In this document: positions 1,843-32,673 of the stretch, piece by piece | Numbering within the stretch: the first letter of the stretch is position 1 | Layout of the letters: the number at the start of each line of letters is the position of its first letter | Virus record (IMG/VR): IMGVR_UViG_3300045999_009250 | Location: 62,001 to 126,000 of that record | Length of the DNA stretch: 64,000 nt | Source: a virus | Direction: 5' to 3' (one strand) | The notes under the pieces: generated by a model | The model's input: only the letters and a program-made list of their open reading frames with translations | Told to the model about the DNA's origin: nothing | Databases searched by the model: none | Program-made: the position numbers and the translations under genes

Positions 1843-3699
1843 ATGTTAACAACAGAATCCCAAATTCTATCTGAGATCACAACTCACCTCAAGTATGCTA
1901 AATTCAATCCTGAATTACAGCGAAGAGAAACATGGCACGAGTTAGTTACTCGTAACAAAAACATGCATATTAAAAAATATCCTCAATTAACTGAGGAAAT
2001 TGAAAATGCGTATCAATATGTTTATGACAGAAAAGTATTACCATCAATGCGTTCAATGCAGTTTGCTGGTAAACCAATTGAAATAAACAATGCAAGAATA
2101 TTTAATTGTTCTTATTTACCAATAGATGATTACAGAGCATTCTCTGAAATTATGTTTCTATTATTATCAGGTTGTGGAGTAGGCTATTCAGTACAAACAC
2201 ACCACGTAGAAAATTTACCTGAAATTAGAAAACCATTAAAATCAAAACGTTATTTAGTTGGTGATTCAATAGAGGGGTGGGCTGATGCGGTTCGTATGTT
2301 AACTAAAGCATATTTTGGACAAACATCAACCGCTCCTTTATTTGATTTTAGAGACATCAGAGCAAAAGGTGCATCATTAATCACTGTAGGTGGTAAAGCC
2401 CCAGGTCCTGAACCATTAAAAATTGCTTTAATTCATATGCAAGCGATTTTAGATCGTAAAAAAGATGGTGAAAAATTAACATCTGTAGAATGTCATGATA
2501 TCATTTGTCACTTAGCTGATGCTGTATTAAGTGGTGGAATTAGAAGAGCAGCTTTAATTGCTTTATTTGATTTAGATGATGAAGAAATGTTAACTTGTAA
2601 ATTCGGACCATGGTGGGAAACAAATCCACAAAGAGGTAGAGCTAATAATTCTGCTGTATTATTAAGAAATAAAATCGATAAAGAAACATTCTTAAGCTTA
2701 TGGGGTAAAATTGAAGCGTCTAACAGTGGTGAACCTGGTTTCTTATTTACAAACGATAAAGATTCTGGAACTAACCCATGTGCTGAAATTAGTTTAAAAC
2801 CAAATCAATTCTGTAATTTATGTGAAATTAATGCTTCAGACATTGAAACACAAGAAGAATATAATGAAAGAGCTAAAGCAGCAGCATTTATCGGTACATT
2901 ACAAGCAAGCTATACTGATTTTCATTACTTAAGAGATGTTTGGAGAAAAACAACTGAAAAAGAAGCATTATTAGGTATTGGAATGACAGGTATTGCTTCA
3001 GGAGCTGTATTAAAATTAGATATGAAACAAGCAGCTAAAATTGCTGTTGAAGAAAATGCAAGAGTAGCAGAAATATTAGATATTAATAAAGCAGCTCGTG
3101 TAACTACAGTTAAACCATCAGGTACTACATCATTAGTATTAGGTACTTCAAGTGGTATCCATGCTTGGCATGATGATTTCTATATGAGAAGAATTCGTTT
3201 AGGTAAAAATGAAGCATTGTATTCTTATTTAAGTATGTATCATCCTGAAATGTTAGAAGATGATTTCTTTAAACCAACCTTACAATCAATTGTTTCTGTA
3301 CCACAACGTGCTCCACAAGGCGCTATAACACGTAAAGAATCAGCTATGGATTTATTAGAGCGTATTAAAACAATCAATAAAAATTGGATTAAACCAGGTC
3401 ATAGAAAAGGCTCTAACATGCATAACGTATCTGCTACAGTTACTATTAAACAAGATGAATGGGATTCAGTAGGTGAATGGTTATATGAAAATAAAGAATA
3501 CTTTACAGCATTATCGTTCTTACCTGAAGACCTTGGTACTTATGTACAAGCTCCTTTTGAAACAATTACAGAAGAACAATTTAATGAAGCTGTAAAATCA
3601 TTACATCAAGTTGATTTATCAAAAGTAATTGAGATAGATGATAATACAGCATTGATGGACCAAGCGGCATGTGCTGGTGGTGCCTGTGAAATAATTTAA
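1843..3699 (+). CDS. nrdJ: Adenosylcobalamin-dependent (class II) ribonucleotide reductase
   Basis: 618 residues; reduces ribonucleotides to deoxyribonucleotides for phage DNA synthesis. The NCSYLPIDD and LLLSGCGVGYSVQ segments, NPCAEISL and a C-terminal redox pair CAGGAC (Cys610, Cys615) fit the monomeric class II (NrdJ/RTPR) family, which uses B12 and needs no NrdB subunit; no nrdB is present in the window. It is shorter than the Lactobacillus enzyme (about 740). It follows the helicase by 25 bases, probably in the same transcript. Confidence 0.88.
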   Translation: MLTTESQILSEITTHLKYAKFNPELQRRETWHELVTRNKNMHIKKYPQLTEEIENAYQYVYDRKVLPSMRSMQFAGKPIEINNARIFNCSYLPIDDYRAFSEIMFLLLSGCGVGYSVQTHHVENLPEIRKPLKSKRYLVGDSIEGWADAVRMLTKAYFGQTSTAPLFDFRDIRAKGASLITVGGKAPGPEPLKIALIHMQAILDRKKDGEKLTSVECHDIICHLADAVLSGGIRRAALIALFDLDDEEMLTCKFGPWWETNPQRGRANNSAVLLRNKIDKETFLSLWGKIEASNSGEPGFLFTNDKDSGTNPCAEISLKPNQFCNLCEINASDIETQEEYNERAKAAAFIGTLQASYTDFHYLRDVWRKTTEKEALLGIGMTGIASGAVLKLDMKQAAKIAVEENARVAEILDINKAARVTTVKPSGTTSLVLGTSSGIHAWHDDFYMRRIRLGKNEALYSYLSMYHPEMLEDDFFKPTLQSIVSVPQRAPQGAITRKESAMDLLERIKTINKNWIKPGHRKGSNMHNVSATVTIKQDEWDSVGEWLYENKEYFTALSFLPEDLGTYVQAPFETITEEQFNEAVKSLHQVDLSKVIEIDDNTALMDQAACAGGACEII

Positions 3700-3710: not shown

Positions 3711-4688
3711 ATGTTGCGAAAAATAAAAGAAAGAATATTCCCGTTTATAATAGCATTATCTGCTTTATCAGTTAGTGCTTCAGCAGCTTATTACAGTGTC
3801 ACTGGTCTCAGCATGTTATTTGCTGGGGCTAGTGTAGCTGTTTTAATAATGGCTTCATCTTTAGAAATTTCTAAATTAGTAATTGTTTCTTTGTTATATC
3901 AATATTGGGATAAACTTAATAGTTTATTAAGAAGTTATTTAACCTTAGCTGCTACTATATTAATATTAATTACCTCTGCAGGTATATATGGGTTTTTATC
4001 TGGAGCTTATCAAACAACAGCAAATCAATCATCAATAGTTGATCAAAAGATTCAAACTCTAGAAACTAAAAAGGGTTTGTATGAGGATACTAGAAATAAT
4101 ATTCTAAAAGAAAAACAATCAATTGCAGAATTAAAAGGTACTTTATCTTCTTCAACTACAACTCAATCAACTGATAGAAAAGGTAATTTAGTAATAAAAT
4201 CAAATAAAGCAAATATTGAGCAATTACAAACAGCTAATCAATCAGATGAAAGATTAACTACTAAATTAGATATCACTAATGATTCTATATTTGCCTTAGA
4301 AAATAAAATATTAGAGGTAAAAACTACATCTAAAGCAGCTAATGAATTAGGTCCTTTAAAATATTTAAGTAATCTTACAGGACAATCTATGGATAAGATT
4401 ATTAATTGGTTTTTATTAGTTATTATATTTGTATTTGATCCTTTAGCCATCAGTTTAGTAATTGCTGCTAATTTTGCATTTGCGAGATTAAAACCAAAAC
4501 CTCCACCAGAAGTTATTCCTGAGCCTTCTCAACCAATCTATCAACCTCCAACACAACCTGATAATACAAATGTTTTTTTAGATAAAATAAGTAATATAAC
4601 AGAAAGTAATATGGATTTTATAAATAAGCAGGAACATTTAAAAAATGAAATAGAACGATTTAAAGAAGAAACAAAAACATATTTTTAA
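3711..4688 (+). CDS. Membrane protein with four TM segments and a coiled-coil loop
   Basis: 325 residues. Hydrophobic segments at about 8-28, 33-60, 73-98 and 226-256; between the third and fourth lies a 120-residue Gln/Lys/Thr-rich region with coiled-coil character that would face one side of the membrane; the C-terminus is Pro-rich (PKPPPEVIPEPSQP) and ends in a charged helix. Similar coil-containing membrane proteins occur in T4-like marine phages, but I do not know a function. It ends 44 bases before a terminator. Confidence 0.75.
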   Translation: MLRKIKERIFPFIIALSALSVSASAAYYSVTGLSMLFAGASVAVLIMASSLEISKLVIVSLLYQYWDKLNSLLRSYLTLAATILILITSAGIYGFLSGAYQTTANQSSIVDQKIQTLETKKGLYEDTRNNILKEKQSIAELKGTLSSSTTTQSTDRKGNLVIKSNKANIEQLQTANQSDERLTTKLDITNDSIFALENKILEVKTTSKAANELGPLKYLSNLTGQSMDKIINWFLLVIIFVFDPLAISLVIAANFAFARLKPKPPPEVIPEPSQPIYQPPTQPDNTNVFLDKISNITESNMDFINKQEHLKNEIERFKEETKTYF

Positions 4689-4771: not shown

Positions 4772-5563
4772 ATGAAAATTAGTCACGAAGTTCCTTTATG
4801 TTTATTAGAGGATAGTTTATGGTTCAATGATTATCAATATTGTTTACCACATTTATTAGATCAAAGCGAAGAATATAAAAATTTCTTTATTAGAGCTAAG
4901 CAAAATAATGTGTATATAATAATGGATAATTCACTTCACGAATTAGGTCATGCTTATGATAGTGAACGCTTATTATACTGGATTAACGAGTTAAAACCCA
5001 ATGAATTTATTATTCCTGATGTATGGCAAGATATGAAAGGTTCAATCAACAATGCTAGAGAATGGTCTAAAATTGACTTACCTGAGGAAGTTACTAAAGT
5101 AGCTGTAGTTCAAGCAATGAATTTAAGTGAAGCAATGACTTGCTATCAATATTATAGAGATTTAGGTTATACAAAAATAGCATTTTCTTATGGTGCTTCT
5201 TATTATAGTGAATTAAATAATCATCCTAATCCAGATTTAGCTAAAGCTTTAGGTCGTATTTATATGATTAATCATTTATATAAAATTAAATTAATTAAAG
5301 ACGATCACAGAGTACATTTATTAGGATGTCAGGTACCACAAGAATTTAGCTGGTATAATAATATGTCTTTTATTGAAACAATAGATACTTCTAATCCTAT
5401 TATGGCAACATTAGATAATATAGAATATCATTCAACAGGTTTACAAACTAAACCAAAAGCAAACATGAATAATAATTTTTATATTAACCCAGATGAAATT
5501 GACTATGAATTATTAAACCACAACATTTCCACATTTAAAGATTTAACAAATACAATATATTAA
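4772..5563 (+). CDS. Probable DpdA-like 7-deazaguanine DNA transglycosylase
   Basis: 263 residues. Reads like a TGT/DpdA-type TIM barrel: a candidate catalytic Asp in IIMDNSLHELG, FIIPDVWQDM, a strand KVAVVQAMN, SYGAS, HLLGCQVPQEF and ETIDTSNP (second Asp). DpdA enzymes swap guanine in DNA for preQ0 or a derivative, which protects phage DNA from host restriction. The best support is context: queC follows and queD, queE and folE, the full preQ0 route, lie within 8 kb. Motifs are weaker than in classical TGT, so this is a family-level call. Confidence 0.6.
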   Translation: MKISHEVPLCLLEDSLWFNDYQYCLPHLLDQSEEYKNFFIRAKQNNVYIIMDNSLHELGHAYDSERLLYWINELKPNEFIIPDVWQDMKGSINNAREWSKIDLPEEVTKVAVVQAMNLSEAMTCYQYYRDLGYTKIAFSYGASYYSELNNHPNPDLAKALGRIYMINHLYKIKLIKDDHRVHLLGCQVPQEFSWYNNMSFIETIDTSNPIMATLDNIEYHSTGLQTKPKANMNNNFYINPDEIDYELLNHNISTFKDLTNTIY

Positions 5564-5564
5564 T

Positions 5565-5795
5565 ATGCAAGAACAATATCAATCACTTTTCGATTATCTA
5601 GGAAAACCAGCAGGTACAGATTTAGGTAAACAAGTTTTTACTGAATCTAAAAAACAAGGTATAAAAACAATAATAAGAGAAGTTAAAACAAAAAATTATG
5701 AAGGAAAAGTAATGGTTTATCCTACATCTTTTTTAGAAAATTACTTTAATCCTCAACCAACTCAACCAAATATTTTTGATGATCTTCTATTTTAA
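5565..5795 (+). CDS. Small protein of unknown function
   Basis: 76 residues, starting 1 base after the stop of the DpdA-like gene, so probably cotranscribed and coupled to it. Mixed charge, no membrane segment; ends NIFDDLLF, an acidic-hydrophobic tail of the kind that can dock to a sliding clamp or polymerase, but this is only a resemblance. Confidence 0.6.
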   Translation: MQEQYQSLFDYLGKPAGTDLGKQVFTESKKQGIKTIIREVKTKNYEGKVMVYPTSFLENYFNPQPTQPNIFDDLLF

Positions 5796-5796
5796 T

Positions 5797-5827
5797 TTGG
5801 AAAACAATAAAAATTTTAATATATTAT
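5797..5827 (+). promoter_or_regulatory. Promoter TTG-N20-TATATTAT for queC
   Basis: TTG 5797-5799 just after the upstream stop, TATATTAT 5820-5827, ATG 4 bases later. Confidence 0.65.
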
Positions 5828-5831
5828 AAAT

Positions 5832-6734
5832 ATGAATAAAAAATATGCTGTACTCTCCTTAAGTGGAGGAATGGATTCAAGCACATTATTAATTAAACTC
5901 CTATCAGAAAACTATCAAGTAGTTGCACTCTCTTTTGATTATGGACAAAAACATAAAGTAGAATTAGAAAGAGCTACTGAATTGGTAAAATATATTAATA
6001 GTAGGAGCATTGGTACTAAAGGAGGATATGGAGGGTATGAATTAGTCAAACATCAAATAATTACATTAGATGGTTTAGCACAATTACTTAATTCTTCATT
6101 AGTTGAAGGTGGTGCTGAAGTACCTGAAGGACATTACGCTGAAGAAAATATGAAGGATACTGTAGTACCTAATCGTAATAAAATATTTTCAAGTATTATT
6201 CAAGCAGTAGCTTTATCTATTTCTAATAAAAAAGAGGCGGAATGTGTTATTGCTTTAGGAGTACATAGTGGTGATCATTCTATTTATCCTGATTGCACAG
6301 AAGCATTTAGAAATGCGGATGAATATGCTTTTAAAATAGGAAATTGGGACTCAGAATTAGTAAATTATTACACACCATATATGGAAGGTAATAAATTTAC
6401 AATCTTAGAAGATGGAGTTAAATGTTGTGATGAATTAGGTTTAGATTTTGATGAAGTATATAAACGTACTAATACAAGTTATAAACCAATTAAATTAATA
6501 AAATCAGAAAAAAGATTTAAAGGAACAGAAGACGAAATAAATGTATTCTTTGAAGTATGGTACAGTGACTACAAATCAGCATCTTCAGTTGAACGTGTAG
6601 AAGCATTTATGAAATTAGGTCGTCCTGATCCTTGTGAATATGCTGACGAAAATGGTCCTGTAGCTTGGGAACACGTAGTCTCTTACGTATGTTCAGTGCT
6701 AGAAAATCATGAGAAAGAAACGTCAAATAACTGA
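5832..6734 (+). CDS. queC: QueC, preQ0 synthase, with altered zinc site
   Basis: 300 residues against about 220-230 for bacterial QueC. Converts 7-carboxy-7-deazaguanine to preQ0 using ATP and ammonia. The PP-loop SGGMDSS is at about 11-17 and SFDYGQKH, VVPNRN and ALGVHSGDH match the family. The C-terminal zinc site is missing: the usual TSCY reads NTSY (Ser216), and the CxxCxxC segment before the R..AF motif reads SDYKSASSVERVEAF, with Ser249 and Ser252 where Cys is expected. About 28 extra residues lie between the two halves of the site. Fold and pathway are clear; zinc dependence is doubtful. Confidence 0.9.
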   Translation: MNKKYAVLSLSGGMDSSTLLIKLLSENYQVVALSFDYGQKHKVELERATELVKYINSRSIGTKGGYGGYELVKHQIITLDGLAQLLNSSLVEGGAEVPEGHYAEENMKDTVVPNRNKIFSSIIQAVALSISNKKEAECVIALGVHSGDHSIYPDCTEAFRNADEYAFKIGNWDSELVNYYTPYMEGNKFTILEDGVKCCDELGLDFDEVYKRTNTSYKPIKLIKSEKRFKGTEDEINVFFEVWYSDYKSASSVERVEAFMKLGRPDPCEYADENGPVAWEHVVSYVCSVLENHEKETSNN

Positions 6735-6741
6735 TAGACCA

Positions 6742-6912
6742 ATGTATGCTATTATAAATAAAAACGGTGAAGTATTTGCTGGATTATTAAGTGGTTATCC
6801 ACAATGGTCTTCTGATTGGGATAATGTTAAACTATTATTTCGAGAAAATACTGCTTTTATTTATAATACCAACCCAACAGAATACGAATTAATAAATGAA
6901 AGTGAATTATAA
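6742..6912 (+). CDS. Small phage protein of unknown function
   Basis: 56 residues from the ATG at 6742 (MYAIINKNGEVFAG). An in-frame ATG at 6709 would add 11 residues and overlap queC by 26 bases; I prefer 6742 because the folded strand seems to begin there. Aromatic-rich (PQWSSDWDN) with no known domain. Confidence 0.6.
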   Translation: MYAIINKNGEVFAGLLSGYPQWSSDWDNVKLLFRENTAFIYNTNPTEYELINESEL

Positions 6913-7135
6913 ACAGCCCAAATTCGATCCACAAACTGGAGAAATTAACCCTTATATGATAGATTTAGAATTAAAAACAAACAAACAACCAGATCCAAGA
7001 AAACACCAGCTAGTAAGCTTTATCAAATCAGGCATCAGAATCTCAGGCTACATTTGTTTGCCTTTTGATTTAACAATTGCTTGCCTTATCTTGGTTTTCT
7101 CAGAATTAGTTGGTATATTAGAAGAATTAGTATAA
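6896..7135 (+). CDS. Small protein with C-terminal hydrophobic stretch
   Basis: 79 residues, overlapping the previous gene by 17 bases. Polar N-terminal half (QPKFDPQTGEINPY), then a hydrophobic half with ICLPFDLTIACLILVFSEL, long enough for one membrane pass or a buried helix. Function unknown. Confidence 0.6.
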   Translation: MKVNYKQPKFDPQTGEINPYMIDLELKTNKQPDPRKHQLVSFIKSGIRISGYICLPFDLTIACLILVFSELVGILEELV

Positions 7136-7158
7136 CATAGTGTGCTCCTTGATTTTTA

Positions 7159-7171
7159 ACATATTTATAAT
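7159..7171 (+). promoter_or_regulatory. AT-box (second promoter class) before GIY-YIG gene
   Basis: ACATATTTATAAT ending 1 base before the ATG. Matches the recurring TAATATTTATAAT signal. Confidence 0.45.
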
Positions 7172-7172
7172 C

Positions 7173-7754
7173 ATGGAGCACACCAAAATATATTATTTAC
7201 ATTATGGAGATAATATTCCTTTTTATGTAGGGAAAACTAGAAATGAATATCATAGATTATTTAACCATAAAAAAACGTTTGGTAAAAACACTGTGATGGA
7301 AATAATAGATGAAGTTTTAAATTGGAGAAAATGGGAAGTGTATTATATTGAAGAATTTAAAAAACAAGGATATATTCTTCAAAATAAAAATAAAGGTGGA
7401 GGTGGCTCTGAAAAATGGGAAGATAAATCAATCCAAAAACTAAAATCTCACCCTACAAGAGGTAAAAATATAAGTGAATCTCATAAAGGAAAACAAAAAT
7501 CACATAAAGGAAAAAAATTTAAAGAAGAACATAAACAAAAAATAAAAGCAACAAGAGATTTTCTCAAAAATAGGCCTAATACTTGGATTAATACTCCTGT
7601 ATTACAATATGATTTAGAAGGAAATTTTATTAAAGAGTGGTCATCTCAATTAGAGGCTACTAAATATTTAAATAAAACAGGAGATGGAATAGGAGCTTGT
7701 TGTAGAGGAAGACAAAAAAAAGCTTACAATTACATTTGGAAATTTAAAAAATAA
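7173..7754 (+). CDS. GIY-YIG homing endonuclease
   Basis: 193 residues from the ATG at 7173. N-terminal GIY-YIG-like nuclease fold (KIYYLHYGDNIPFYVGKT, then a conserved Glu region), a Gly-rich turn GGGGSEKW, NUMOD3-type Lys-rich repeats and a C-terminal NUMOD1/IENR module (VLQYDLEGNFIKEW to YIWKFKK). Free-standing enzymes of this sort cut related phage genomes and spread by repair. It sits between small genes and the thioredoxin/queD operon, and its last codons supply the TTG of the next promoter. Confidence 0.88.
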   Translation: MEHTKIYYLHYGDNIPFYVGKTRNEYHRLFNHKKTFGKNTVMEIIDEVLNWRKWEVYYIEEFKKQGYILQNKNKGGGGSEKWEDKSIQKLKSHPTRGKNISESHKGKQKSHKGKKFKEEHKQKIKATRDFLKNRPNTWINTPVLQYDLEGNFIKEWSSQLEATKYLNKTGDGIGACCRGRQKKAYNYIWKFKK

Positions 7755-7766
7755 ATTATATATTAC
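7736..7766 (+). promoter_or_regulatory. Promoter TTG-N20-TATATTAC for thioredoxin/queD/queE
   Basis: TTG 7736-7738 within the last codons of the endonuclease, TATATTAC 7759-7766, ATG 4 bases later. Confidence 0.65.
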
Positions 7767-7770
7767 AAAC

Positions 7771-8016
7771 ATGAAAAAAATATTTTTATTTACAGCAGAG
7801 TGGTGTCCTGGCTGTAAAACATTAGAACCAACAATGGATAGAGTTAGAGATGCAGGAGTAACTGTTGAAAAAATTAACATTGATTATGAATCAGATAGAG
7901 CTAGAGCAGCTAATGTTATGAGTATTCCAACAGTAGTATTAGCTGAAAACGGTCAAGAAATCAAACGCTTCGTAGGAGCTAAAACATACGAACAAGTATT
8001 AGAATTTATTAAATAA
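7771..8016 (+). CDS. Thioredoxin-like protein
   Basis: 81 residues, thioredoxin fold with active-site WCPGC (Cys12, Cys15) and the cis-Pro segment SIPTVVL. Shorter than bacterial thioredoxin (about 105), as is common for phage thioredoxin/glutaredoxin hybrids. Likely electron donor for the phage ribonucleotide reductase or other disulphide exchange in the cytoplasm. Its stop overlaps the queD start by 1 base. Confidence 0.9.
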   Translation: MKKIFLFTAEWCPGCKTLEPTMDRVRDAGVTVEKINIDYESDRARAANVMSIPTVVLAENGQEIKRFVGAKTYEQVLEFIK

Positions 8017-8483
8017 TGGGAAAATTTCAATCAACAAAATTATTTGACGGATTCAGTTGTGTATTTCGTCAATGGAAAGCAGAAGGTACTCATTGCCAAT
8101 TTTTACATGGTTATGGAGTATCATTTAGAGTATGGTTCGAAGGTGAATTAGACGAACGTAATTGGGTATGGGATTTTGGAGGTATGAAACGTGCTAAAGG
8201 TACTATTGATGGTAAAAATCCTAAAGCATGGATGGATCATATGTTTGACCATACTGTTATAGCATCAATAGATGATCCTTACTTGGATAAATTTAAACAA
8301 ATGGAAGTAGATGGTATAATCCAATTAAGAATAATTCCAGCAACAGGAGCAGAACAATTTGCAAAGTACATTTATGAAAAACTAAACACTTTTATTCAAG
8401 AAGAAACAAAAGGTAGAGTGAAAATAACAAAAGTAGAATTTATGGAGCATAGTAAAAATACAGCAATTTATACAGAAATATGA
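8016..8483 (+). CDS. queD: QueD, 6-carboxytetrahydropterin synthase
   Basis: 155 residues of the 6-pyruvoyl-tetrahydropterin synthase family; second step of preQ0 synthesis, acting on the FolE product. Zinc-ligand histidines appear in GTHCQFLHGYGV; a nucleophile Cys in FSCVF; DHMFDHTVI and the Glu-containing VEFMEH match the family core. Translationally coupled to thioredoxin upstream and queE downstream (4-base overlap). Confidence 0.88.
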   Translation: MGKFQSTKLFDGFSCVFRQWKAEGTHCQFLHGYGVSFRVWFEGELDERNWVWDFGGMKRAKGTIDGKNPKAWMDHMFDHTVIASIDDPYLDKFKQMEVDGIIQLRIIPATGAEQFAKYIYEKLNTFIQEETKGRVKITKVEFMEHSKNTAIYTEI

Positions 8484-9262
8484 GTTTAGGAAGAATAACA
8501 GATTACGATAAAAAATTACCAATAGTAGAATTATACTATTGTGTACAAAGTGAAGGTTCAAGAGCAGGCTTTCCAACAGTAGCCGTTAGAACAACAGGCT
8601 GTACTCACAGATGTTGGTTTGGTGAAGGTGGTTGGTGTGATTCATGGTATACAAGCATTCATCCTGAAAAAGGTGGATTTACATTTAATGATATTGTTAA
8701 AATGTATGATAATAGACCTGATATTACTGAAATGATGTTAACAGGTGGTTCTCCAACAATGCATCCTGATTTAGTTAATGAATTAACACATTTTGCTAAT
8801 GAAAGAGGTATTGTAATTACAATTGAAACTGAAGGTTCACATTTTCTAGAAACAGATTTTCCAATTGGCTTAATTTCATTATCACCTAAATTTACTAATA
8901 GTGTTCCTAAATTAGGAGTATTAACACCAAAAGGAGCTGTAGTAGATCAAAAGATGATTGATCAACATAATAAATTACGTTTAAATAAAGACGCAATGTG
9001 TAAAACAATTGATTATCATACTAATTACCATTTTAAACCAGTGTGTAATCCTGTAGAAATGCCTGAAATTTGGGAAGAAATTGAAGCATTTAGAGTAGAG
9101 ATGAATATTCCTAAAAACAAAACATGGATTATGCCTCCAGGTGATAATAGACAAGAGTTAATAAGAGTATATCCAATGGTATTTGATTTTTGTGCTGAAC
9201 ATGGATATAATTTTACAGGTAGAGAACATATTATTGCCTTTGATACTCGTCGTGGAGTTTGA
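8480..9262 (+). CDS. queE: QueE, 7-carboxy-7-deazaguanine synthase (radical SAM)
   Basis: 260 residues. Radical SAM enzyme of preQ0 synthesis. The Fe-S motif is unusual: GC41-THR-C45-WFGEGGW-C53-D, CX3CX7C rather than the common CX3CX2C, so five residues are inserted before the third Cys. LTGGSPTMHP is the GGEP-like SAM-binding strand and ETEGSHFLE follows. Overlaps queD by 4 bases. An HNH endonuclease gene lies directly downstream. Confidence 0.87.
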   Translation: MSLGRITDYDKKLPIVELYYCVQSEGSRAGFPTVAVRTTGCTHRCWFGEGGWCDSWYTSIHPEKGGFTFNDIVKMYDNRPDITEMMLTGGSPTMHPDLVNELTHFANERGIVITIETEGSHFLETDFPIGLISLSPKFTNSVPKLGVLTPKGAVVDQKMIDQHNKLRLNKDAMCKTIDYHTNYHFKPVCNPVEMPEIWEEIEAFRVEMNIPKNKTWIMPPGDNRQELIRVYPMVFDFCAEHGYNFTGREHIIAFDTRRGV

Positions 9263-9291
9263 TTATAATACATAAAGAAGAGTCTATTTTC

Positions 9292-9305
9292 ATATATTTA
9301 TTAAT
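9292..9305 (+). promoter_or_regulatory. AT-box before HNH endonuclease
   Basis: ATATATTTATTAAT ending 2 bases before the ATG; a diverged copy of the second promoter-like signal, with no TTG 20 bases upstream of its TATATTTA. Confidence 0.35.
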
Positions 9306-9307
9306 AT

Positions 9308-9946
9308 ATGAGTAGATATAAACAAATATGTAATGAATGTAAAATACATTATAAATCAAATGGATCAGGGAGTAAATATTGTTCTCCTGATTGTAGGCAA
9401 ATAGCAAGAGCTAAAGATAGACAATTTACTTCCTGTTCCTGTTGTTTTAAAGATGTTAGATATTTTCCTAACAGTGAACATAAAAATAAGAAAAATATTT
9501 TTTGTTCTAATAAATGTCAAGGAGAATGGATGAAAATTAATTCACAAAATCTTCAATTGGTTGAAAGAGCTAATAAGATGAGAGAAAGTTGGAATGAAAA
9601 TGCTTGGAAAAAAGGAATTGAAACTAGAATAAAAAAAGGAAATATCATTGATTGGGATAAAGCAGGATGGAAACAATATTGGAAAAGATGTGATTGGTTA
9701 ACTAGAAAAATTAGAAAACAAATGTTAGAAAATTGGGATGGTTATGATTATATTAGTAAAGAATATATTAAAGATAATTTAATTTTACATTATAGTCATG
9801 GTGATTATCCTACATTAGACCATATTAAACCCCGATCACAGTGTTTTAAAGAAGGTTTATCTCCATATGAAGCTACTAAACCAGAAAATTTAGCATGGAC
9901 TACAAGAAAAAACAATAGTAAAAAATCACAGAAAAAATTAAAATAG
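9308..9946 (+). CDS. HNH homing endonuclease with zinc-ribbon N-terminus
   Basis: 212 residues. Two Cys-rich zinc ribbons at the N-terminus (CNEC..YCSPDC and CSCC..FCSNKC), a Lys/Trp-rich linker and a C-terminal HNH nuclease: LDHIKPRSQCFKEG, then ENLAWTTRKNNSKKS with the catalytic Asn region. Lies between queE and the thioesterase gene, where it looks like an insertion into the modification block. No TTG-N20 promoter is visible at its 3' end. Confidence 0.85.
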   Translation: MSRYKQICNECKIHYKSNGSGSKYCSPDCRQIARAKDRQFTSCSCCFKDVRYFPNSEHKNKKNIFCSNKCQGEWMKINSQNLQLVERANKMRESWNENAWKKGIETRIKKGNIIDWDKAGWKQYWKRCDWLTRKIRKQMLENWDGYDYISKEYIKDNLILHYSHGDYPTLDHIKPRSQCFKEGLSPYEATKPENLAWTTRKNNSKKSQKKLK

Positions 9947-9949
9947 AAA

Positions 9950-10348
9950 ATGGTATTATTAACAACACATCCTGTTAAAAAATTAGATTTAGGTACTCAT
10001 GGTAATCTATTTGGTGGTAAGTTACTCTCACTATTAGATTCAGCTGTAGCAGCTTATGCAATGGAGACATGCCATAGTAAAAATATGGTTACTGTTTCTA
10101 TTGATAAATGTGAGTTTAAAAAACCTGCAAAAGAAGGTAATTTAGTAAAAATATATGCTGAATTAACTAAAATAGGAACTACATCAGCTCAATTTAATGT
10201 TGAGGCTAGAAATTATAATGTATTTACTGAAGAAGAAACTTGTATATTATCTACTCATATGACTTTTGTTAGAATTGATGACGAAGGCGGACCAATTCCA
10301 ATTTCAGAAACAGTTAGAAGAAAATTTAATTCTCCAGTTACAAAATAA
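9950..10348 (+). CDS. Hotdog-fold acyl-CoA thioesterase
   Basis: 132 residues, hotdog fold. GTHGNLFGGKLLSLLDSAVA matches the YciA/acyl-CoA hydrolase signature (catalytic Asp on the central helix), followed by VTVSIDKCEFKKPAKEGN and the C-terminal strand. Predicted to hydrolyse acyl-CoA or another acyl thioester in the cytoplasm. Unusual in a T4-like phage; its link to the neighbouring modification and nucleotide genes is unclear. Confidence 0.82.
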   Translation: MVLLTTHPVKKLDLGTHGNLFGGKLLSLLDSAVAAYAMETCHSKNMVTVSIDKCEFKKPAKEGNLVKIYAELTKIGTTSAQFNVEARNYNVFTEEETCILSTHMTFVRIDDEGGPIPISETVRRKFNSPVTK

Positions 10349-10358
10349 TATTTATAAT
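10346..10358 (+). promoter_or_regulatory. AT-box before the glutaredoxin-like gene
   Basis: TAATATTTATAAT, a perfect copy of the second signal, ending 2 bases before the ATG at 10361. Confidence 0.5.
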
Positions 10359-10360
10359 AT

Positions 10361-10600
10361 ATGAAAATAACGTATTTTTACCATAAAGGATGTCGTCAAT
10401 GTAAAGACTTAGCTCCTATCATAAATGAATTTCAAGCTCCTCTTAACATTAATTTGGTAGACACATATACTGATAGTATGTTAATGGAAGAAAATACAAT
10501 TAACTGGGTTCCTACTCTTGTGATTGAAGATAAAAACGGAAAACACAAATTTGAAGGACCAGCTGAAGTTAAAGAAGTTTTGAGAAAATTAGTTTTATGA
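10361..10600 (+). CDS. Glutaredoxin/thioredoxin-like protein
   Basis: 79 residues, thioredoxin superfamily with GCRQC active site (Cys11, Cys14) and the cis-Pro segment NWVPTLVIED. Second small redox protein in the window; different active site from the 7771 gene (CPGC). Overlaps the phosphoribosyltransferase start by 4 bases. Confidence 0.82.
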   Translation: MKITYFYHKGCRQCKDLAPIINEFQAPLNINLVDTYTDSMLMEENTINWVPTLVIEDKNGKHKFEGPAEVKEVLRKLVL

Positions 10601-11100
10601 TAGTAGAATTCACAGAAAAAGAAATACAAGACAAAATTAAACAAATTGCTGATTTTATTAATCAGAAACAACATAATAAACCTCCTGTGTTTATATGTGT
10701 ATTAAACGGTGCTTTTATGTTTTTTACGGATTTAGTGAAACAAATAGGTAAATGCGAAATAGACTTTATACGTGCGAAATCTTACGAAGGTACTACACAA
10801 AGTGAGATAAAAATTACTAAATCTTGTGAATTAGAACTAATAGATAGAGATGTTTATTTAGTAGATGATATCTATGATTCGGGAAATACAGTAAAAGCAT
10901 TAATAAAACATTTATCAAACGAAAAAGCAAATTCAATAACACCAATTACATTATTTAAAAAGTGGCATTCAAATCATCCTGAATTAATATATGGTTTTGA
11001 ATTAACAGATGAACATTGGTTAATAGGTTATGGTTTAGATGCAAGTGATGGTACTCAAAGAAACCTTACTTATATTAAAGGTATCCAACCAGGAGATTAA
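10597..11100 (+). CDS. Purine-type phosphoribosyltransferase
   Basis: 167 residues, type I PRTase fold. The PRPP-binding loop reads VYLVDDIYDSGNT, and FICVLNGAFMFFTDL is the N-terminal PPi-loop region of hypoxanthine-guanine phosphoribosyltransferases. Probably salvages purine bases (hypoxanthine/guanine) to nucleotides; a deazapurine substrate is conceivable given the neighbours, but nothing in the sequence shows it. Confidence 0.85.
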   Translation: MIVEFTEKEIQDKIKQIADFINQKQHNKPPVFICVLNGAFMFFTDLVKQIGKCEIDFIRAKSYEGTTQSEIKITKSCELELIDRDVYLVDDIYDSGNTVKALIKHLSNEKANSITPITLFKKWHSNHPELIYGFELTDEHWLIGYGLDASDGTQRNLTYIKGIQPGD

Positions 11101-11110
11101 TATTTATATT
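11098..11110 (+). promoter_or_regulatory. AT-box before the ADP-ribosyltransferase-like gene
   Basis: TAATATTTATATT, one base from the consensus, 2 bases before the ATG at 11113. Confidence 0.45.
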
Positions 11111-11112
11111 AA

Positions 11113-11943
11113 ATGAATTCAACACACGTATTTAAAAGAAAAATAGCAGAAATAAAAGATGAATATCCTTTATTAGAAAATCATGGAGATTTATGGGCTT
11201 TAGGAATGTATGATAGTATTTGTGAAGAACAGATTTTAAAAGAATTTATTTCACAAACAATTGAAGCTGATAAAACTTCTAAAGAACTTGATAAACGTTT
11301 TCCAGCTTTAGATATTTCAATAAATATAGAATCACCAAAAGTATTTAGTATAAATCTACCTAAATCAGCTTTTAAATATTGGGGGGAAATATCTAAATTT
11401 CTTGATACTTTTGGTTGGTATCCATCTTATATAGCATTAGTTACAGAGGATTTTTTTGGTGGTTTTTTAAAAGATAAAGGAAAATATAGCAATGAATCTA
11501 TGAATACCATGATGAAATCAGCTGATGATGAGGATGCTATTCAAATATCAATAGAAGCCAAATATGATACAGAACAACAACCAGAAAAATATTATTATCA
11601 TTTAGTTCCCGATATTTATCTAGATAAAGTAGAATTAAAAGGTTTGACACCAAAAACCAAAAGTAAAATAGCAACTCATCCAGAACGAGTATATTTACTA
11701 AATCCAGATAATGAAGATGAATTTGAAAAAATAGCTAATATGCTGTATGATAAAACTCCATCAAAAGAAACAAAATCAAAAATTAAAAATTATCATCTGT
11801 TAAGAATTAATGCTGATGCTATAAAAGATAAAGTTAAATTTTATAACGATCCTAATTTTCGAATTGGAAATGGAGCTGTTTGGACATATCAAAATATAGC
11901 TCCTAAATACATAGAAAAAATAGAAACTATTCCTATTGGATAG
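11113..11943 (+). CDS. Possible ADP-ribosyltransferase-fold protein (KptA/DarT-like C-terminus)
   Basis: 276 residues. The second half (about 159-276) has the order expected of KptA/DarT-type ADP-ribosyltransferase folds: YYYHLVPDIYLDKVEL, GLTPKTKSK, HPERVYLL, then LLRINADAI, FYNDPNF and GAVWTYQNIAPKYIEKI. The N-terminus (VFKRKIAEIKDEYPLLE) holds two (I/L)xE sites, like T4 capsid-targeting leaders, and the gene is preceded by an AT-box. T4 Alt is a packaged ADP-ribosyltransferase, so an analogous role is possible. The fold call rests on pattern only. Confidence 0.4.
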   Translation: MNSTHVFKRKIAEIKDEYPLLENHGDLWALGMYDSICEEQILKEFISQTIEADKTSKELDKRFPALDISINIESPKVFSINLPKSAFKYWGEISKFLDTFGWYPSYIALVTEDFFGGFLKDKGKYSNESMNTMMKSADDEDAIQISIEAKYDTEQQPEKYYYHLVPDIYLDKVELKGLTPKTKSKIATHPERVYLLNPDNEDEFEKIANMLYDKTPSKETKSKIKNYHLLRINADAIKDKVKFYNDPNFRIGNGAVWTYQNIAPKYIEKIETIPIG

Positions 11944-11944
11944 T

Positions 11945-11975
11945 TTGGTAAAATAAAAAACAATTTATATATTAT
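11945..11975 (+). promoter_or_regulatory. Promoter TTG-N20-TATATTAT for folE
   Basis: TTG 11945-11947 beside the upstream stop, TATATTAT 11968-11975, ATG 9 bases later. Confidence 0.6.
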
Positions 11976-11984
11976 AATAAAGTT

Positions 11985-12662
11985 ATGTCAGATAAGAAAA
12001 AATTCGATTTAGAATGTGTTACGCCCGGTTTTGCCAATGGCTTAGCACCAGGTGCACCATTCACCGAATCTCAAAAATGGGAAATGGTAGTAGAGGCTGA
12101 AGAAGCATATGGTAAATTTCTAGATGCATTAAAATGTGATTGGAGAAATGACCCAAATTCATCAAACACACCACACAGAGTAGCAAAAGCATATGTTTTT
12201 GATTTATGGAAAGGTAGATACGAGGATATGAGTGGAATAACTTCATTTCCATCAGATGGTTATGATGGTATTGTAATCGAACGTAACATTCCATTAACAA
12301 GTATGTGTTCACATCACCACCAAACAATTGGAGGTGTAGTTCATGTTGGTTATATTGTTGGTGAAAATGGTAGTGTAATCGGTTTATCAAAATTAAATCG
12401 TATTGTAGAACATTTTGGGCGCAGAGGTGCTATTCAAGAACAATTAACATCAGCAATTCATCAAGCAGTAGATAAAGTTTGTGAAAACAACAGAGGTGTT
12501 ATTGTAACAGTAGTAGCAACACACAATTGTGTAAAATGTAGAGGTGTTAAACATCAAGGTGCATCAATGGTTACAACTAAAGCATCAGGAGTGTTTATGG
12601 ATAATGCTAATCAAGCACGTACAGAGTATTTTGATAGTTTAAAAATTAATGGAAGTTTATAA
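11985..12662 (+). CDS. folE: FolE, GTP cyclohydrolase I
   Basis: 225 residues. Converts GTP to 7,8-dihydroneopterin triphosphate, the first step of preQ0 synthesis. Family motifs are intact: TPHRVAKAY, zinc/active site SMCSHHHQTIGG, GLSKLNRIVEHF, QEQLT and NCVKCRGVKHQGASMVTT. With queD, queE and queC the phage carries the whole GTP-to-preQ0 route. One base separates it from dut. Confidence 0.95.
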   Translation: MSDKKKFDLECVTPGFANGLAPGAPFTESQKWEMVVEAEEAYGKFLDALKCDWRNDPNSSNTPHRVAKAYVFDLWKGRYEDMSGITSFPSDGYDGIVIERNIPLTSMCSHHHQTIGGVVHVGYIVGENGSVIGLSKLNRIVEHFGRRGAIQEQLTSAIHQAVDKVCENNRGVIVTVVATHNCVKCRGVKHQGASMVTTKASGVFMDNANQARTEYFDSLKINGSL

Positions 12663-17886: not shown

Positions 17887-18195
17887 ATGAAATTAGAAGC
17901 ATTATACAACGCAGTTATCGTTAAGCCATTTGAGGCTGAGGAAACAACTCACGGAAACATTATAGTTCCCGATTTAGGAAATGAAAAAAACAAACTAGGA
18001 AAAGTAGTAGCAGTAGGAGATGGATATTATTCAGTTACTGGTGCTTGGTTAGACACAATTTTAGAAGTAGGAAATATTGTTGTATTACCAACTATGGGAT
18101 TTACTAAATTAGAACACGAAGGTGAAGAATATTGGATTGGACCTGAAAATCAAGTATTAGCTCGTCTCAACAATGAAACAGAAGAAAAAATATAA
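17887..18195 (+). CDS. groES: GroES co-chaperonin
   Basis: 102 residues, normal GroES length. YNAVIVKPFEAEETTHGNIIVPD contains the mobile loop that caps GroEL; KLGKVVAVGDG and VGNIVVLP follow. Six bases upstream of groEL, the usual bacterial operon order. T4 encodes only the GroES substitute gp31; here a recognisable GroES is paired with its own GroEL. Confidence 0.93.
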   Translation: MKLEALYNAVIVKPFEAEETTHGNIIVPDLGNEKNKLGKVVAVGDGYYSVTGAWLDTILEVGNIVVLPTMGFTKLEHEGEEYWIGPENQVLARLNNETEEKI

Positions 18196-18200
18196 AAATC

Positions 18201-19811
18201 ATGAGTAAAATTATAGAATTTGGCCCAGAAGCCCGTAAAAAACTATCAGCTGGTATAGATAAACTAGCAAACGCAGTAACATCAACGTTAGGACCTAATG
18301 GTCGTAACGTAGTTATTGCTAATCAAGGTATTCCACAAAGTACAAAAGATGGTGTTACTGTAGCAAAATCAATCACATTAGAAGATCCAATTGAAGAATT
18401 AGGTGTTCAATTACTAAAACAAGCAGCTATTAAAACAGCTGATAATGCTGGTGATGGTACAACTACATCTACATTATTAGCCCAAGAAATGGTTAAACAA
18501 GGTTTACTTCATTTAAATAATGGAGCTAATGCTGTAGAAATTAAACGTAGTATTGATAAAACAGTTAAAGAATTAGTTAACTTTATTCGTACAGATATTA
18601 AAGAAGATATTTCATCTGAAGACCAACTTAAACAAGTTGCTACAATTTCAGCAAATAATGATCCTGAAGTAGGTGAATTAATAGCTACTGCAATGCAGAA
18701 AGTTGGTCGTGAAGGAGTAGTGTTTATTGAAGAATCTAAAAACGGTGAAACTTATCTTGAAACAGTAGAAGGAATGCAGTTTGATAGAGGTTACAAATCA
18801 CCTTATTTTGTTACTGATAATAACACTATGAGTACTACTATTAGTGATGCATTGATTTTAATAGCTGATAAAAAATTCACACAAGTTAAAGAATTATTAC
18901 CAATTTTAGAAGCAGTATCAACACAAAATAAATCATTATTAATTATTGCTGAAGATATTGAAGGTGAAGCATTAGCTACTTTGATTGTAAATAAAGCAAG
19001 AGGAATTTTAAAAGTAGTTGCTGTTAAAGCTCCTGATTTTGGTGATAGAAGAAAATTAATCCTTGAAGATATTGCTATTATGACTGGTGGTCAAGTATTC
19101 AGTACTGAAAAAGGAATGAAACTTGATAAATTTAATTGGGAATGGTTTGGTGAAGCTAGAGTAGTAACAGTAGGTAAAGATACTACAACATTAGTTGATG
19201 GTAAAGGTGAAGCAGAAAAAATCGAAGCTCGTATCACAGAACTACAATCACAAATTGAAAAGTCAGTATCTCCATATGAAAAAGAAAAATTGCAAGAACG
19301 TTTAGCTAAATTTGTGGGTGGAGTAGCAATTGTTCACGTAGGTGGTTTTACTGAATCTGAAATGAAAGAGAAAAAAGACCGTGTTGATGATGCTTTACAA
19401 GCAACAAAAGCCGCTTTAGAAGAAGGTATTGTTCCAGGTGGTGGTGCTGTATTATTACACGCTCGTACTAGCATCAATATTAGTGATATTGGTTCACAAA
19501 TTGTTTATAATGCTTGTGCTGCACCATTTAAGAAAATTTTATCAAATGCTGGTTATGAGCAAGAAGATATTTATAATGCTGTTAATTCAGTAACAGGTGG
19601 TGATTATTGGTTTGGTTGGGATTTAAAATCAGAAGATTTCGTAAATATGAAAGATGCAGGTATTATTGATCCAGCTAAAGTAACTAGAACAGCACTTGAA
19701 AATGCAGCATCAGTTGCAGGTACTATTTTATTAACAGAAGCAGTAGTTGTTGATAAACCTGAAGACAATAAAAATGATGACGGATTAGGAAATATGATGG
19801 GAATGATGTAA
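18201..19811 (+). CDS. groEL: GroEL chaperonin
   Basis: 536 residues, full length. TLGPNGRNV, DGTTTSTLLAQ (ATP hydrolysis), VPGGGAVLLHAR and a Gly/Met-rich end NMMGMM are present. Forms the folding chamber with GroES, most likely for capsid protein or phage enzymes. The apical region carries departures (MKLDKFNWEWFGEARVV), so it has diverged from host GroEL and does not look like a recent copy. Confidence 0.95.
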   Translation: MSKIIEFGPEARKKLSAGIDKLANAVTSTLGPNGRNVVIANQGIPQSTKDGVTVAKSITLEDPIEELGVQLLKQAAIKTADNAGDGTTTSTLLAQEMVKQGLLHLNNGANAVEIKRSIDKTVKELVNFIRTDIKEDISSEDQLKQVATISANNDPEVGELIATAMQKVGREGVVFIEESKNGETYLETVEGMQFDRGYKSPYFVTDNNTMSTTISDALILIADKKFTQVKELLPILEAVSTQNKSLLIIAEDIEGEALATLIVNKARGILKVVAVKAPDFGDRRKLILEDIAIMTGGQVFSTEKGMKLDKFNWEWFGEARVVTVGKDTTTLVDGKGEAEKIEARITELQSQIEKSVSPYEKEKLQERLAKFVGGVAIVHVGGFTESEMKEKKDRVDDALQATKAALEEGIVPGGGAVLLHARTSINISDIGSQIVYNACAAPFKKILSNAGYEQEDIYNAVNSVTGGDYWFGWDLKSEDFVNMKDAGIIDPAKVTRTALENAASVAGTILLTEAVVVDKPEDNKNDDGLGNMMGMM

Positions 19812-23364: not shown

Positions 23365-24798
23365 ATGATAAAAGAAAAATTCGGTTATTTAAAACCTGAC
23401 GAAAGAAAGAAAATACTCCTAATATGCGATGATATTCGTGTACATTCAGGAGTAGCAACAGTTACAAGAGAAATAGTATTTCACACAGCTCAACATTTTA
23501 ATTGGGTAAATTTAGGAGGAGCAATTAACCATCCTGAAGCCGGTAAACGTTTAGATTTATCTCAATCAATAAACGAGGCTACAGGTTTAACAGATTCTTC
23601 TGTATTTATGTATCCTGTAAATGATTATGGAACTCCAGATTTATTACGACATATAATAAAGATTGAAAAACCAGATGCTATAATGCTAGTTACTGATCCA
23701 CGTTATTTTATATGGTTGTTTAGTATGGAAAATGAAATTAGAAAACATATTCCAATTACTTATTTGAATATCTGGGATGATTATCCAGCACCTTTATATA
23801 ACAAACCATTTTATGAGGCTTGTGATTTATTAATGGGTATTTCAAAACAAACAGTTAACATTAACAAATTAGTTTTAGAAGAAAAAGCATCAGATAAAAT
23901 CATTAAATATGTACCTCATGGTTTAAATCATGAAATATTCAAACCTTTAGATAAAAATGATCCTGCTTTAATTGAATTTAAGAAAAGAATACTTAAAGGC
24001 AAAGAATATGATTTTGTGTTATTTTTTAACTCTAGAAATATTAGACGCAAACAAATCCCAGATACTATTTTAGCATACAGACATTTTATAGATAAATTAA
24101 CTGCTGAACAAGCTAAAAAATGTGCTTTTGTATTACATACTGAAAGAGTAAGTGAACATGGTACTGATTTAGATGCTGTTATTGAATTATTAGCTAATGG
24201 TGAAGAATACAATATTATCTTTACAGATGATAGATTTGACCCACACCAAATGAATTTGCTTTATAATTGTACAGATGCTCAAATTTTATTAACTTCAAAT
24301 GAAGGTTGGGGATTAAGTTTAACTGAAGCATTATTGACAGGTAAACCAATTATTGCTAACGTAACAGGTGGAATGCAAGACCAAATGAGATTTGAATTTG
24401 AAGATGGAACGTGGATTGATTTCACCCCAGATTTTCCTTCAAACCATAATGGAACTTACAAAAAACATGGTAAATGGGCATACCCAGTATACCCAACCAA
24501 TAAATCATTGGTAGGTTCACCAGTAACACCGTATATATGGGATGATAGATGTACAGCCGAGGACGCTGCTGAACAAATTATGAACGTTTATACAGACGAA
24601 AATCGTGTTGAAAACGGTTTAGCAGGTAGAGAATGGGCATTAAGCGATGAAGCCGGATTTACAGGTGAAAAACAAGGTATTAGAGTAATAAATGCATTTG
24701 ATGAATTATTTTCAACTTGGGAACCAAGAGAAAAATTCGAATTTATTAATACCAATGAAGTTAAGGATAGAAAAATAAACCATAAATTATTATACTAA
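23365..24798 (+). CDS. GT4-type glycosyltransferase
   Basis: 477 residues, GT-B fold. ILLICDDIRVHSGVATVT is the N-terminal acceptor domain start; the nucleotide-sugar domain has FFNSRNIRRKQIPD and the EX7E region TSNEGWGLSLTEALLTGKPIIAN, typical of GT4 enzymes. First gene of the glycan island; 4 bases before a second GT4. Donor and acceptor unknown. Confidence 0.87.
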   Translation: MIKEKFGYLKPDERKKILLICDDIRVHSGVATVTREIVFHTAQHFNWVNLGGAINHPEAGKRLDLSQSINEATGLTDSSVFMYPVNDYGTPDLLRHIIKIEKPDAIMLVTDPRYFIWLFSMENEIRKHIPITYLNIWDDYPAPLYNKPFYEACDLLMGISKQTVNINKLVLEEKASDKIIKYVPHGLNHEIFKPLDKNDPALIEFKKRILKGKEYDFVLFFNSRNIRRKQIPDTILAYRHFIDKLTAEQAKKCAFVLHTERVSEHGTDLDAVIELLANGEEYNIIFTDDRFDPHQMNLLYNCTDAQILLTSNEGWGLSLTEALLTGKPIIANVTGGMQDQMRFEFEDGTWIDFTPDFPSNHNGTYKKHGKWAYPVYPTNKSLVGSPVTPYIWDDRCTAEDAAEQIMNVYTDENRVENGLAGREWALSDEAGFTGEKQGIRVINAFDELFSTWEPREKFEFINTNEVKDRKINHKLLY

Positions 24799-24802
24799 AA
24801 AA

Positions 24803-26092
24803 ATGAACAAACCGTTATTTATAATTAGTTCTGCATTTGATACTTACAGTGGGTATGGTGCTAGAAGTCGTGATCTGATCAAAGCAATTATTGAAACAGA
24901 CAAATATGAGGTAAAACTATTATCTCAACGTTGGGGAAATACACCATTTGGTTTTTGTGAAGACAATTCTGAATGGGAATTTTTAAGTAAATTAGTATTA
25001 CCTAATAATCAATTACCTAAACAACCAGAAATTTGGATGCAAATTAGTGTTCCAAATGAATTCCAACCAGTAGGAAAATACAATATTGGTTGTACAGCAG
25101 GTATTGAAACAACAATATGTCCTCCTGATTTTGTAGAAGGTATAAATAGAATGGATCTAACATTAGTATCTTCAGAACATGCTAAAAAAGTATTCCAAGA
25201 TTCTAAATATGAAAAAAGAAATCAACAAACTAATCAATTAGAAGGAGTCGTTGAGTTAAATAAACCAATGGAGGTTTTATTTGAAGGTGCTAATTTAGAT
25301 GTTTATAAAGCAATTGATACACCTTGTTCTTTAGATATTAACATAAAAGAAAGTTTTGCTTACTTATTTGTAGGACATTGGATGCAAGGAGATCTTGGAG
25401 AAGATAGAAAAAACGTAGGTTTTTTAATTAAAGCATTTTATGAAACATTTAAAAACAAATCAAATAAACCAGCACTTATTTTAAAAACATCTCAAGTAGG
25501 TTCTTCATATGTTGATAGAGAAGAAATTTTGAAAAAAATTAAAATGATTAAAAAAACAGTTAATTCTACAAACCTACCAAACATTTATTTATTACATGGT
25601 GAATTCACTGATGTTGAAATGAATGAAATATATAATCATTCTAAAATAAAAGCTATGATTAATTTAACTAAAGGTGAAGGATTTGGAAGACCATTACTTG
25701 AATTTACTTTAAGCAAAAAACCATTAATTACAACAGGTTGGTCAGGACATTTAGATTTTTTAAATCCTGAATTTACTACTTTAATTGGAGGTAATTTAGC
25801 TAATGTTCACCCAAGTGCTGCTAATCAATTTATATTAAAAGAAGCACAATGGTTTTCACCAGATCCAGGTCAAATAGGTTTTTATTTAAAAGATGTATTT
25901 GAAAATTATAAAAACTATACTGATGGAGCTAAACGTCAATCACACTATAGTAAAACTAACTTTAGTTGGGATAAAATGAAAGAAAAAACAGATGAATTAT
26001 TTACTAAATATATTCCTGAATTTCCAAAACAAATAGAATTAAAATTACCTCAATTAAAAAAAATTGAATTACCAAAATTACAAAAAATATAA
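24803..26092 (+). CDS. GT4-like glycosyltransferase
   Basis: 429 residues, GT-B type. SAFDTYSGYGARSRDLIKA opens the fold; FVGHWMQG and the EX7E-like segment NLTKGEGFGRPLLEFTLSKKP identify the donor domain. Unlike the preceding enzyme it ends in a short Pro/Leu/Lys repeat (ELKLPQLKKIELPKLQK). Shares 1 base with the next gene. Confidence 0.8.
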   Translation: MNKPLFIISSAFDTYSGYGARSRDLIKAIIETDKYEVKLLSQRWGNTPFGFCEDNSEWEFLSKLVLPNNQLPKQPEIWMQISVPNEFQPVGKYNIGCTAGIETTICPPDFVEGINRMDLTLVSSEHAKKVFQDSKYEKRNQQTNQLEGVVELNKPMEVLFEGANLDVYKAIDTPCSLDINIKESFAYLFVGHWMQGDLGEDRKNVGFLIKAFYETFKNKSNKPALILKTSQVGSSYVDREEILKKIKMIKKTVNSTNLPNIYLLHGEFTDVEMNEIYNHSKIKAMINLTKGEGFGRPLLEFTLSKKPLITTGWSGHLDFLNPEFTTLIGGNLANVHPSAANQFILKEAQWFSPDPGQIGFYLKDVFENYKNYTDGAKRQSHYSKTNFSWDKMKEKTDELFTKYIPEFPKQIELKLPQLKKIELPKLQKI

Positions 26093-26567: not shown

Positions 26568-26571
26568 CAGT

Positions 26572-31964: not shown

Positions 31965-31967
31965 AAA

Positions 31968-32666: not shown

Positions 32667-32673
32667 ATAAAAT

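Follow-up and report, generated by a model that had tools for sequence, protein, structure and literature searches.

Does the virus of IMG/VR record IMGVR_UViG_3300045999_009250 carry a 7-deazaguanine in its DNA and, if so, which one? We analyzed a 64,000-nucleotide stretch of this record (the window; bases 62001-126000 of 171,684, and the record may itself be a fragment), in which positions 4772-12662 encode a DpdA-type DNA guanine transglycosylase, the enzymes FolE, QueD, QueE and QueC, and a hypoxanthine-guanine phosphoribosyltransferase (HPRT). The genes, the tRNA-guanine transglycosylase (TGT)/DpdA fold, the synteny across viral loci and the loss of zinc ligands in QueC and QueD were computed, and from these we infer what the enzymes do, which base is made, how much guanine is replaced and that guanine is recycled. 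According to this reading, to which we assign a probability of roughly 60%, FolE, QueD, QueE and QueC would make preQ0 from GTP, the DpdA-type enzyme would put preQ0 in place of guanine, probably at a high proportion of the guanines, once the phage DNA has been replicated, the exchanged base would block host restriction, and the linked HPRT would turn the displaced guanine back into nucleotides. QueC would function with no classical zinc site, and the site of QueD would be a remodelled one. Altered guanine in phage DNA is a known trick against host defences.

A preQ0 gene cluster with a DpdA-type transglycosylase

The first-pass annotation, made from the sequence alone, had named FolE, QueD, QueE and QueC and had assigned the gene at 4772 to the DpdA-type transglycosylases, and both assignments hold. 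The four pathway genes are intact open reading frames (ORFs) on the + strand, as are all cluster genes described here; they score above the Pfam gathering thresholds and carry concordant PHROG names. QueC (5832..6734) matches its Pfam family with 127.6 bits (gathering 22, 6.1e-37), and the QueD-like protein (8016..8483) matches PTPS (Pfam accession PF01242) with 61.9 bits (gathering 22.4, 7.1e-17) and PHROG QueD at 1.8e-39. QueE, a radical SAM 7-carboxy-7-deazaguanine (CDG) synthase (8480..9262), is closest to its threshold (Radical_SAM, 29.9 bits, gathering 29.5; PHROG QueE, 3.1e-46), and its cysteine motif is present in 68 of 70 relatives. FolE, GTP cyclohydrolase I (11985..12662; Pfam 142.1 bits, gathering 27, 1.7e-41; PHROG 3.9e-57), keeps its zinc residues; among relatives, HxC...RG is found in 66/66 and C[SE]HH in 53/66. 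NCBIfam equivalog models for all four proteins match under cut-off (QueE at 4.3e-13), and the four are thus divergent members of their families. The queD gene starts on the last base of an upstream thioredoxin-like gene, and the start of queE lies four bases ahead of the queD end, overlaps that resemble an operon arrangement.

The DpdA-type protein (4772..5563) is short, at 263 amino acids. It matches PHROG 19058 (3.2e-46) and has no TGT match in Pfam or NCBIfam; the TGT profile PF01702 found no match over the full 171,684-base record, the window DpdA included. An AlphaFold2 model (predicted local distance difference test score 96.5) contains eight main strands arranged as a TGT-like (beta/alpha)8 barrel (35 aligned rows). 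Foldseek matched this model to TGTs and to the bacterial DNA transglycosylase DpdA (7ui4, E 4.6e-7), and VIA-align gave Z 17.6 against 7ui4 over 231 residues and Z 17.7 against the archaeal archaeosine TGT 1iq8. The motifs DN[SG], H[LM]LG and DTS[NSA]P are invariant in 115/115 unique DpdA relatives. We take D52 of DN[SG] and D205 of DTS[NSA]P to be the two catalytic aspartates, a prediction based on their TGT roles. The HLLG..P and SID regions align with 7ui4 at a weak E of 0.11.

The window DpdA belongs to the same group as Campylobacter phage CP220 gp056 and Flavobacterium phage immuto gp206. It is 38.7% identical to the CP220 protein (over 88% of the query), 40.8% to that of CP21 (86% of the query) and 35% to that of immuto, whose copy is annotated as a DNA guanine transglycosylase. 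Relatives occur in 23 of 50,697 phage records, comprising 14 Campylobacter, 5 Bacillus (24-25% identity) and 4 Flavobacterium phages. Among viral models, the fold matches a Cellulophaga phage phiST protein (E 1e-16) and Vibrio phage nt-1 protein R9TGF0 (E 2e-4), and DpdA2 was defined in nt-1 (PMC6884629, excerpt). An hhalign comparison with a phage V09 ORF assumed to be DpdA2 gave no match (Prob 0.5), but its single-row template makes for a poor test. The CP220-type group was reportedly named DpdA3 in 2023 and tied to complete guanine replacement. Campylobacter phages had been classed as lacking DpdA in 2019 (PMC6884629, excerpt).

We compared 162 viral loci, picked as best matches to the window DpdA or QueC and therefore not a random sample. 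Deduplication left 108 loci with dpdA and queC, many of them truncated contigs, so counts are lower bounds: queD is present in 91, queE in 86, folE in 63 and HPRT in 52. Sixty-one loci have five or all six of the module genes; 42 of them share the order dpdA-queC-queD-queE-HPRT-folE, and in 61/61 all genes lie on one strand; this linkage is therefore not due to chance. At least 552 relatives of DpdA and 516 of QueC were confirmed in viral contigs. Across such contigs the module recurs often and is syntenic.

This arrangement bears on whether the genes might instead raise the queuosine level of the host, or have some other use, with the phage DNA left unmodified. There are phages that encode preQ0 genes yet lack DpdA, and for these a role in tRNA has been put forward (PMC6884629, excerpt). 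In the loci compared here, however, DpdA sits in the same syntenic block as the pathway genes (153 loci with DpdA and 150 with QueC among the 162, which were chosen by these two genes), and the group member with measured DNA, CP220, is modified. We consider an unmodified phage genome improbable.

QueC and QueD without the usual zinc ligands

Textbook QueC and QueD need zinc sites, and the first-pass annotation had missed that both window proteins lack the usual zinc ligands. The canonical QueC zinc motif is C(x)8CxxCxxC, and the signature motifs of the family are SGGxDS, YxQxHxxE, VPxRN and YPDC (PMC13329287). We aligned 115 unique QueC sequences, two of them controls (CP21 and V09). The zinc columns contain none of the four cysteines in 113/113 QueCs, with the pattern S-D-S-S in 110 and gaps in 3. 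The V09 QueC has the four zinc cysteines, as does the CP21 QueC, though the automatic alignment misplaced the latter (scored 2). A QueC relative occurs in 247 phage records, and the zinc site was read in three of these phages: immuto, CP21 and V09.

ATP and substrate motifs are retained in the window QueC subfamily. The window protein carries all four signature motifs, and loose patterns for them match 115 (SGGxDS), 113 (YxQxHxxE), 115 (VPxRN) and 109 (YPDC) of the 115 sequences, controls included. In the AlphaFold2 model (score 91.2), a beta hairpin (220-228/236-245) occupies the place where the zinc knuckle would be. The model fits the QueC structures 3bl5 (Z 17.8) and 2pg3 (Z 17.0), with QatC (18.3) and Cap9 (17.9) about as close. 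We infer that the window protein acts as a QueC; it is not a canonical member of the family.

QueD is recognised by CxxxHGH (PMC5041015, excerpt). The window QueD has CxxxHGY, and the position of the first zinc histidine is F, I or L across its relatives. The first and third of the three expected zinc histidines are replaced in 93 of 94 unique phage QueDs (F-CHY in 74, I-CHY in 16, L-CHY in 3, other in 1). These histidines bind zinc in Escherichia coli QueD. Most of the sequences inspected have a histidine immediately ahead of the cysteine, which might replace a ligand, and QueD may still bind metal.

A literature search on zinc-less QueC or QueD found no description of this subfamily. Zur-linked QueD paralogues retain their zinc residues (PMC2770081, in part), and queC is listed in a Zur regulon (PMC6103462, in part). 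As far as the literature was searched, a large phage group using QueC without the zinc motif and QueD without CxxxHGH is new. If these enzymes are active, the zinc site would be dispensable in QueC, and the textbook metal dependence of QueC and QueD would not be universal. Loss of the zinc sites may also be part of the reason that strict models place these genes under cut-off.

We scanned 84,980 species genomes for QueC and kept the best 80 of 200 relatives. Among these 80, 77 have a clear P-loop, 23 of them without the zinc motif and 54 with it; in the other three (L181-L183) the P-loop pattern was not matched and the zinc motif was also not seen. Zinc-less QueC in this set comes from Fastidiosibacteraceae along with further Thiotrichales, from Poseidoniales and archaea related to them, from Pirellulaceae, and from a small number of contigs of metagenome-assembled genomes (MAGs). 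In 15/15 genomes searched, the single full-length QueC is of the zinc-less subfamily and other matches are partial, though the assemblies may lack a second QueC that the organisms have; one of these genomes (G015) was reached via a phage-like contig in a MAG (L164). Nine bacterial genomes (G001-G006, G010-G012) encode QueF (9), QueA (9) and TGT (8) over cut-off. Since they retain QueF and QueA, zinc-less QueC probably delivers preQ0. Four archaeal genomes (G007-G009, G013) contain TGT and lack QueF, which would fit archaeosine. In Poseidoniales and their kin (L173-L177, L185, L219), the zinc-less QueC is fused to what looks by eye like a C-terminal methionine sulfoxide reductase B domain and lies downstream of folE and queE.

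A QueC tree of 109 sequences, built by a quick method with the zinc region left out, groups the 53 zinc-less rows with two rows that have the zinc motif (L186, L188) in one set at support 100; on this tree the trait has to change twice. One of the zinc rows, L188, is a Spirochaetia MAG contig, probably phage, that contains dpdA (39%), a thymidylate kinase-like gene, QueF and a zinc-motif QueC, and is a possible intermediate. Another set, of 41 rows (support 97), unites the phage rows with 11 contigs that are filed as cellular; nine of the 11 are Thiotrichales/Fastidiosibacteraceae and two are phage-like or uncertain MAG contigs. L164 and probably L163 are phage-like contigs binned into MAGs. 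The idea that the zinc-less cellular QueC is a prophage gene was checked at one Fastidiosibacteraceae locus (L169) and rejected there, as its neighbours (rbs, eno, ispD and mscS-like, read by eye) look chromosomal.

The Fastidiosibacteraceae branch sits among the phage rows (inner support 80-88), which suggests that queuosine genes moved from phages to bacteria. We tentatively propose, as a possibility that falls short of probable, a preQ0 route without the usual zinc sites in QueD and QueC, in which the remodelled QueC is common to aquatic phages, one bacterial family and marine archaea, the remodelled QueD is common to phages and bacteria, and the bacteria may have obtained their genes from such phages.

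The base in the DNA and the fate of guanine

The first-pass annotation had seen no QueF or amidating enzyme, and searches of the full 171,684-base record agree. QueF was absent by both a PF14489 profile and a query with the phage immuto QueF protein, as were glutamine amidotransferase (GATase_6, Pfam accession PF13522), an ArcS-type protein (Pfam accession PF17884) and a formyltransferase of the immuto kind. As a control, the immuto query recovered QueF from three of nine further records, that of the distant V09 among them; these three are the ones that already showed QueF in the locus survey, and the six QueF-free records include five of 158-269 kb. Of the 162 loci, 6 encode a QueF-like protein, and two of these 6 are from the named phages immuto and V09. 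Because the evidence supports the pathway, an inserter of the DpdA type and the lack of both QueF and an amidating enzyme, the phage DNA very probably carries some 7-deazaguanine. The annotation's further proposal that the base is preQ0 itself stands as a best guess, given that CP220 carries another base.

That base is 7-amido-7-deazaguanine (ADG; dADG in DNA), and the 100% dADG reported for CP220 makes it the chief rival. The same pathway and inserter would then operate, with QueC halting at the amide intermediate or an unrecognised enzyme hydrating preQ0. We know of no amidating enzyme in CP220. All dG is replaced by dADG in CP220 and CPt10 (PMC8306585, excerpt), and CP220 is the closest DpdA relative with measured DNA. 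QueC passes through ADG en route to preQ0 (PMC13329287, excerpt), and the C-terminal region of the window QueC is remodelled. We considered zinc loss as a mark of an ADG-only QueC and set it aside: the QueC of CP21, from the CP220 group, retains four cysteines, so zinc loss does not track ADG; bacteria with zinc-less QueC retain QueF and QueA; and immuto, with a QueC 60% identical to that of the window, has a QueF homologue, which needs preQ0. On the cellular QueC evidence and the immuto QueF, preQ0 is moderately favoured as the main base, and dADG appears rather unlikely.

HPRT (10597..11100) matches Pfam Pribosyltran (3.9e-24) and, under cut-off, the NCBIfam HGPRTase model (9.8e-35); the nearest solved HGPRT is 4qri (1.4e-28), and the phosphoribosyl pyrophosphate (PRPP)-loop motif is found in 52 of 58 HPRTs. 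Its presence suggests where displaced guanine goes when much of the genome is exchanged. At 27.9% G+C (the window mean, assumed for the whole record), the genome contains about 48,000 guanines; heavy base exchange would free much guanine, and the linked HPRT could turn it back into GMP. HPRT is a candidate recycler of displaced guanine, and a literature search on HPRT with 7-deazaguanine and phage found nothing. A different role is conceivable, in which HPRT salvages the base to a nucleotide that the polymerase incorporates, with no swap after replication. HPRT is conserved in the cluster, and a modified-dGTP path has been proposed for Campylobacter phages (PMC6884629, excerpt). Against this route, a TGT-fold inserter adjoins the pathway genes. 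HPRT also keeps its canonical aspartate motif; this aspartate acts on N7, and a 7-deaza base has no N7. We regard incorporation by the polymerase as highly improbable.

Several observations weigh against preQ0 exchange with guanine recycling. The nearest DpdA with measured DNA is that of CP220, in which dADG and not dPreQ0 is found. The record is perhaps incomplete, so an extra modifying enzyme could be missing, and no search was aimed at CDG decarboxylase or unknown modifiers. Of the three zinc ligands expected in QueD two are gone, and the simple pattern [FYL]DH is missing from 14 of 94 QueDs; if QueD were inactive, the phage would need host 6-carboxytetrahydropterin (CPH4). Finally, a simple PRPP-loop pattern is missing from 6 of the 58 HPRTs, and HPRT was seen in just 52 of the 108 loci, many of which are truncated.

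Accompanying genes and comparison with known systems

The cluster contains several further genes. A conserved 76-amino-acid ORF between dpdA and queC (5565..5795) has homologues in 63 of the 108 loci and no PHROG match or Pfam match above cut-off. The small thioredoxin/glutaredoxin-like protein that overlaps the queD start (7771..8016, named by its CPGC motif) belongs to a cluster found in 87 of the 108 loci, and a hotdog-fold thioesterase-like protein (9950..10348; Pfam 4HBT, 2.6e-18) is found in 22. Two homing endonuclease genes, read by eye, are inserted: a GIY-YIG-like gene (7140..7754), from a repeated family present in 33 of the 108 loci with two copies near the window cluster, and an HNH-like gene (9308..9946). 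By eye, other GIY-YIG-like ORFs lie at 90-395, 39183-39941 and 46010-46834. A 276-amino-acid protein adjoining folE (11113..11943) has relatives in 3 other loci (32-35%), no Pfam match above cut-off and weak PHROG matches only, one of them to RNA 2'-phosphotransferase (E 0.0032).

Directly upstream of dpdA is a membrane-protein-like ORF of 325 amino acids (3711-4688), kept in 69 of the 108 loci and preceded by a DnaB-like helicase (435-1817) and an adenosylcobalamin-type ribonucleotide reductase (1843-3699). GroES- and GroEL-like genes (17887-19811, by eye) are shared with immuto, as is, in part, a long run of glycosyltransferase-, transketolase-, aminotransferase- and methyltransferase-like genes at 23365-35416 (by eye). 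An Rfam scan of the window gave no match, no tRNAs were found in it, and PADLOC returned QueC, a weak viperin-like match by QueE and a chance Csm2 match, and nothing else.

Among the closest known systems is that of Flavobacterium phage vB_FspM_immuto_2-6A (Immutovirus), with 60% identity in QueC, 71% in QueD, 66% in QueE, 61% in FolE, 58% in the thioesterase and 35% in DpdA. Immuto shares the zinc-less QueC and the CxxxHGY QueD; unlike the window record, it has QueF and a formyltransferase near dpdA, and we take its DNA base to be formylated preQ1. The Campylobacter phages CP220 and CP21 (Firehammervirus) encode a DpdA of the same group (39-41%) together with QueD and QueC, but the CP21 QueC has all four zinc cysteines, the CP220 QueD has both histidines, the genes are scattered and the host is Campylobacter.

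A cellular counterpart is the queE-queD-queC set of Fastidiosibacteraceae (Cysteiniphilum, Fangia, Facilibium), whose QueC is 51-53% identical and lacks the zinc cysteines; QueD has F-CHY where found nearby, and QueE is 57-61% identical where found. In contrast to the window, this copy is chromosomal where checked, and its use would be in tRNA queuosine, as judged from QueF, QueA and TGT. The dPreQ0 phages presumably use a DpdA of another subfamily than that of the window. Like the window, the dPreQ0 group combines FolE, QueD, QueE, QueC and DpdA with no amidating enzyme (Hutinet 2019, PMC6884629); the window DpdA is missed by the TGT model PF01702. Phage DNA with 7-deazaguanine is itself already known, and the system described here varies the known phage preQ0/DpdA systems by its remodelled QueC and QueD and its frequent link to HPRT.

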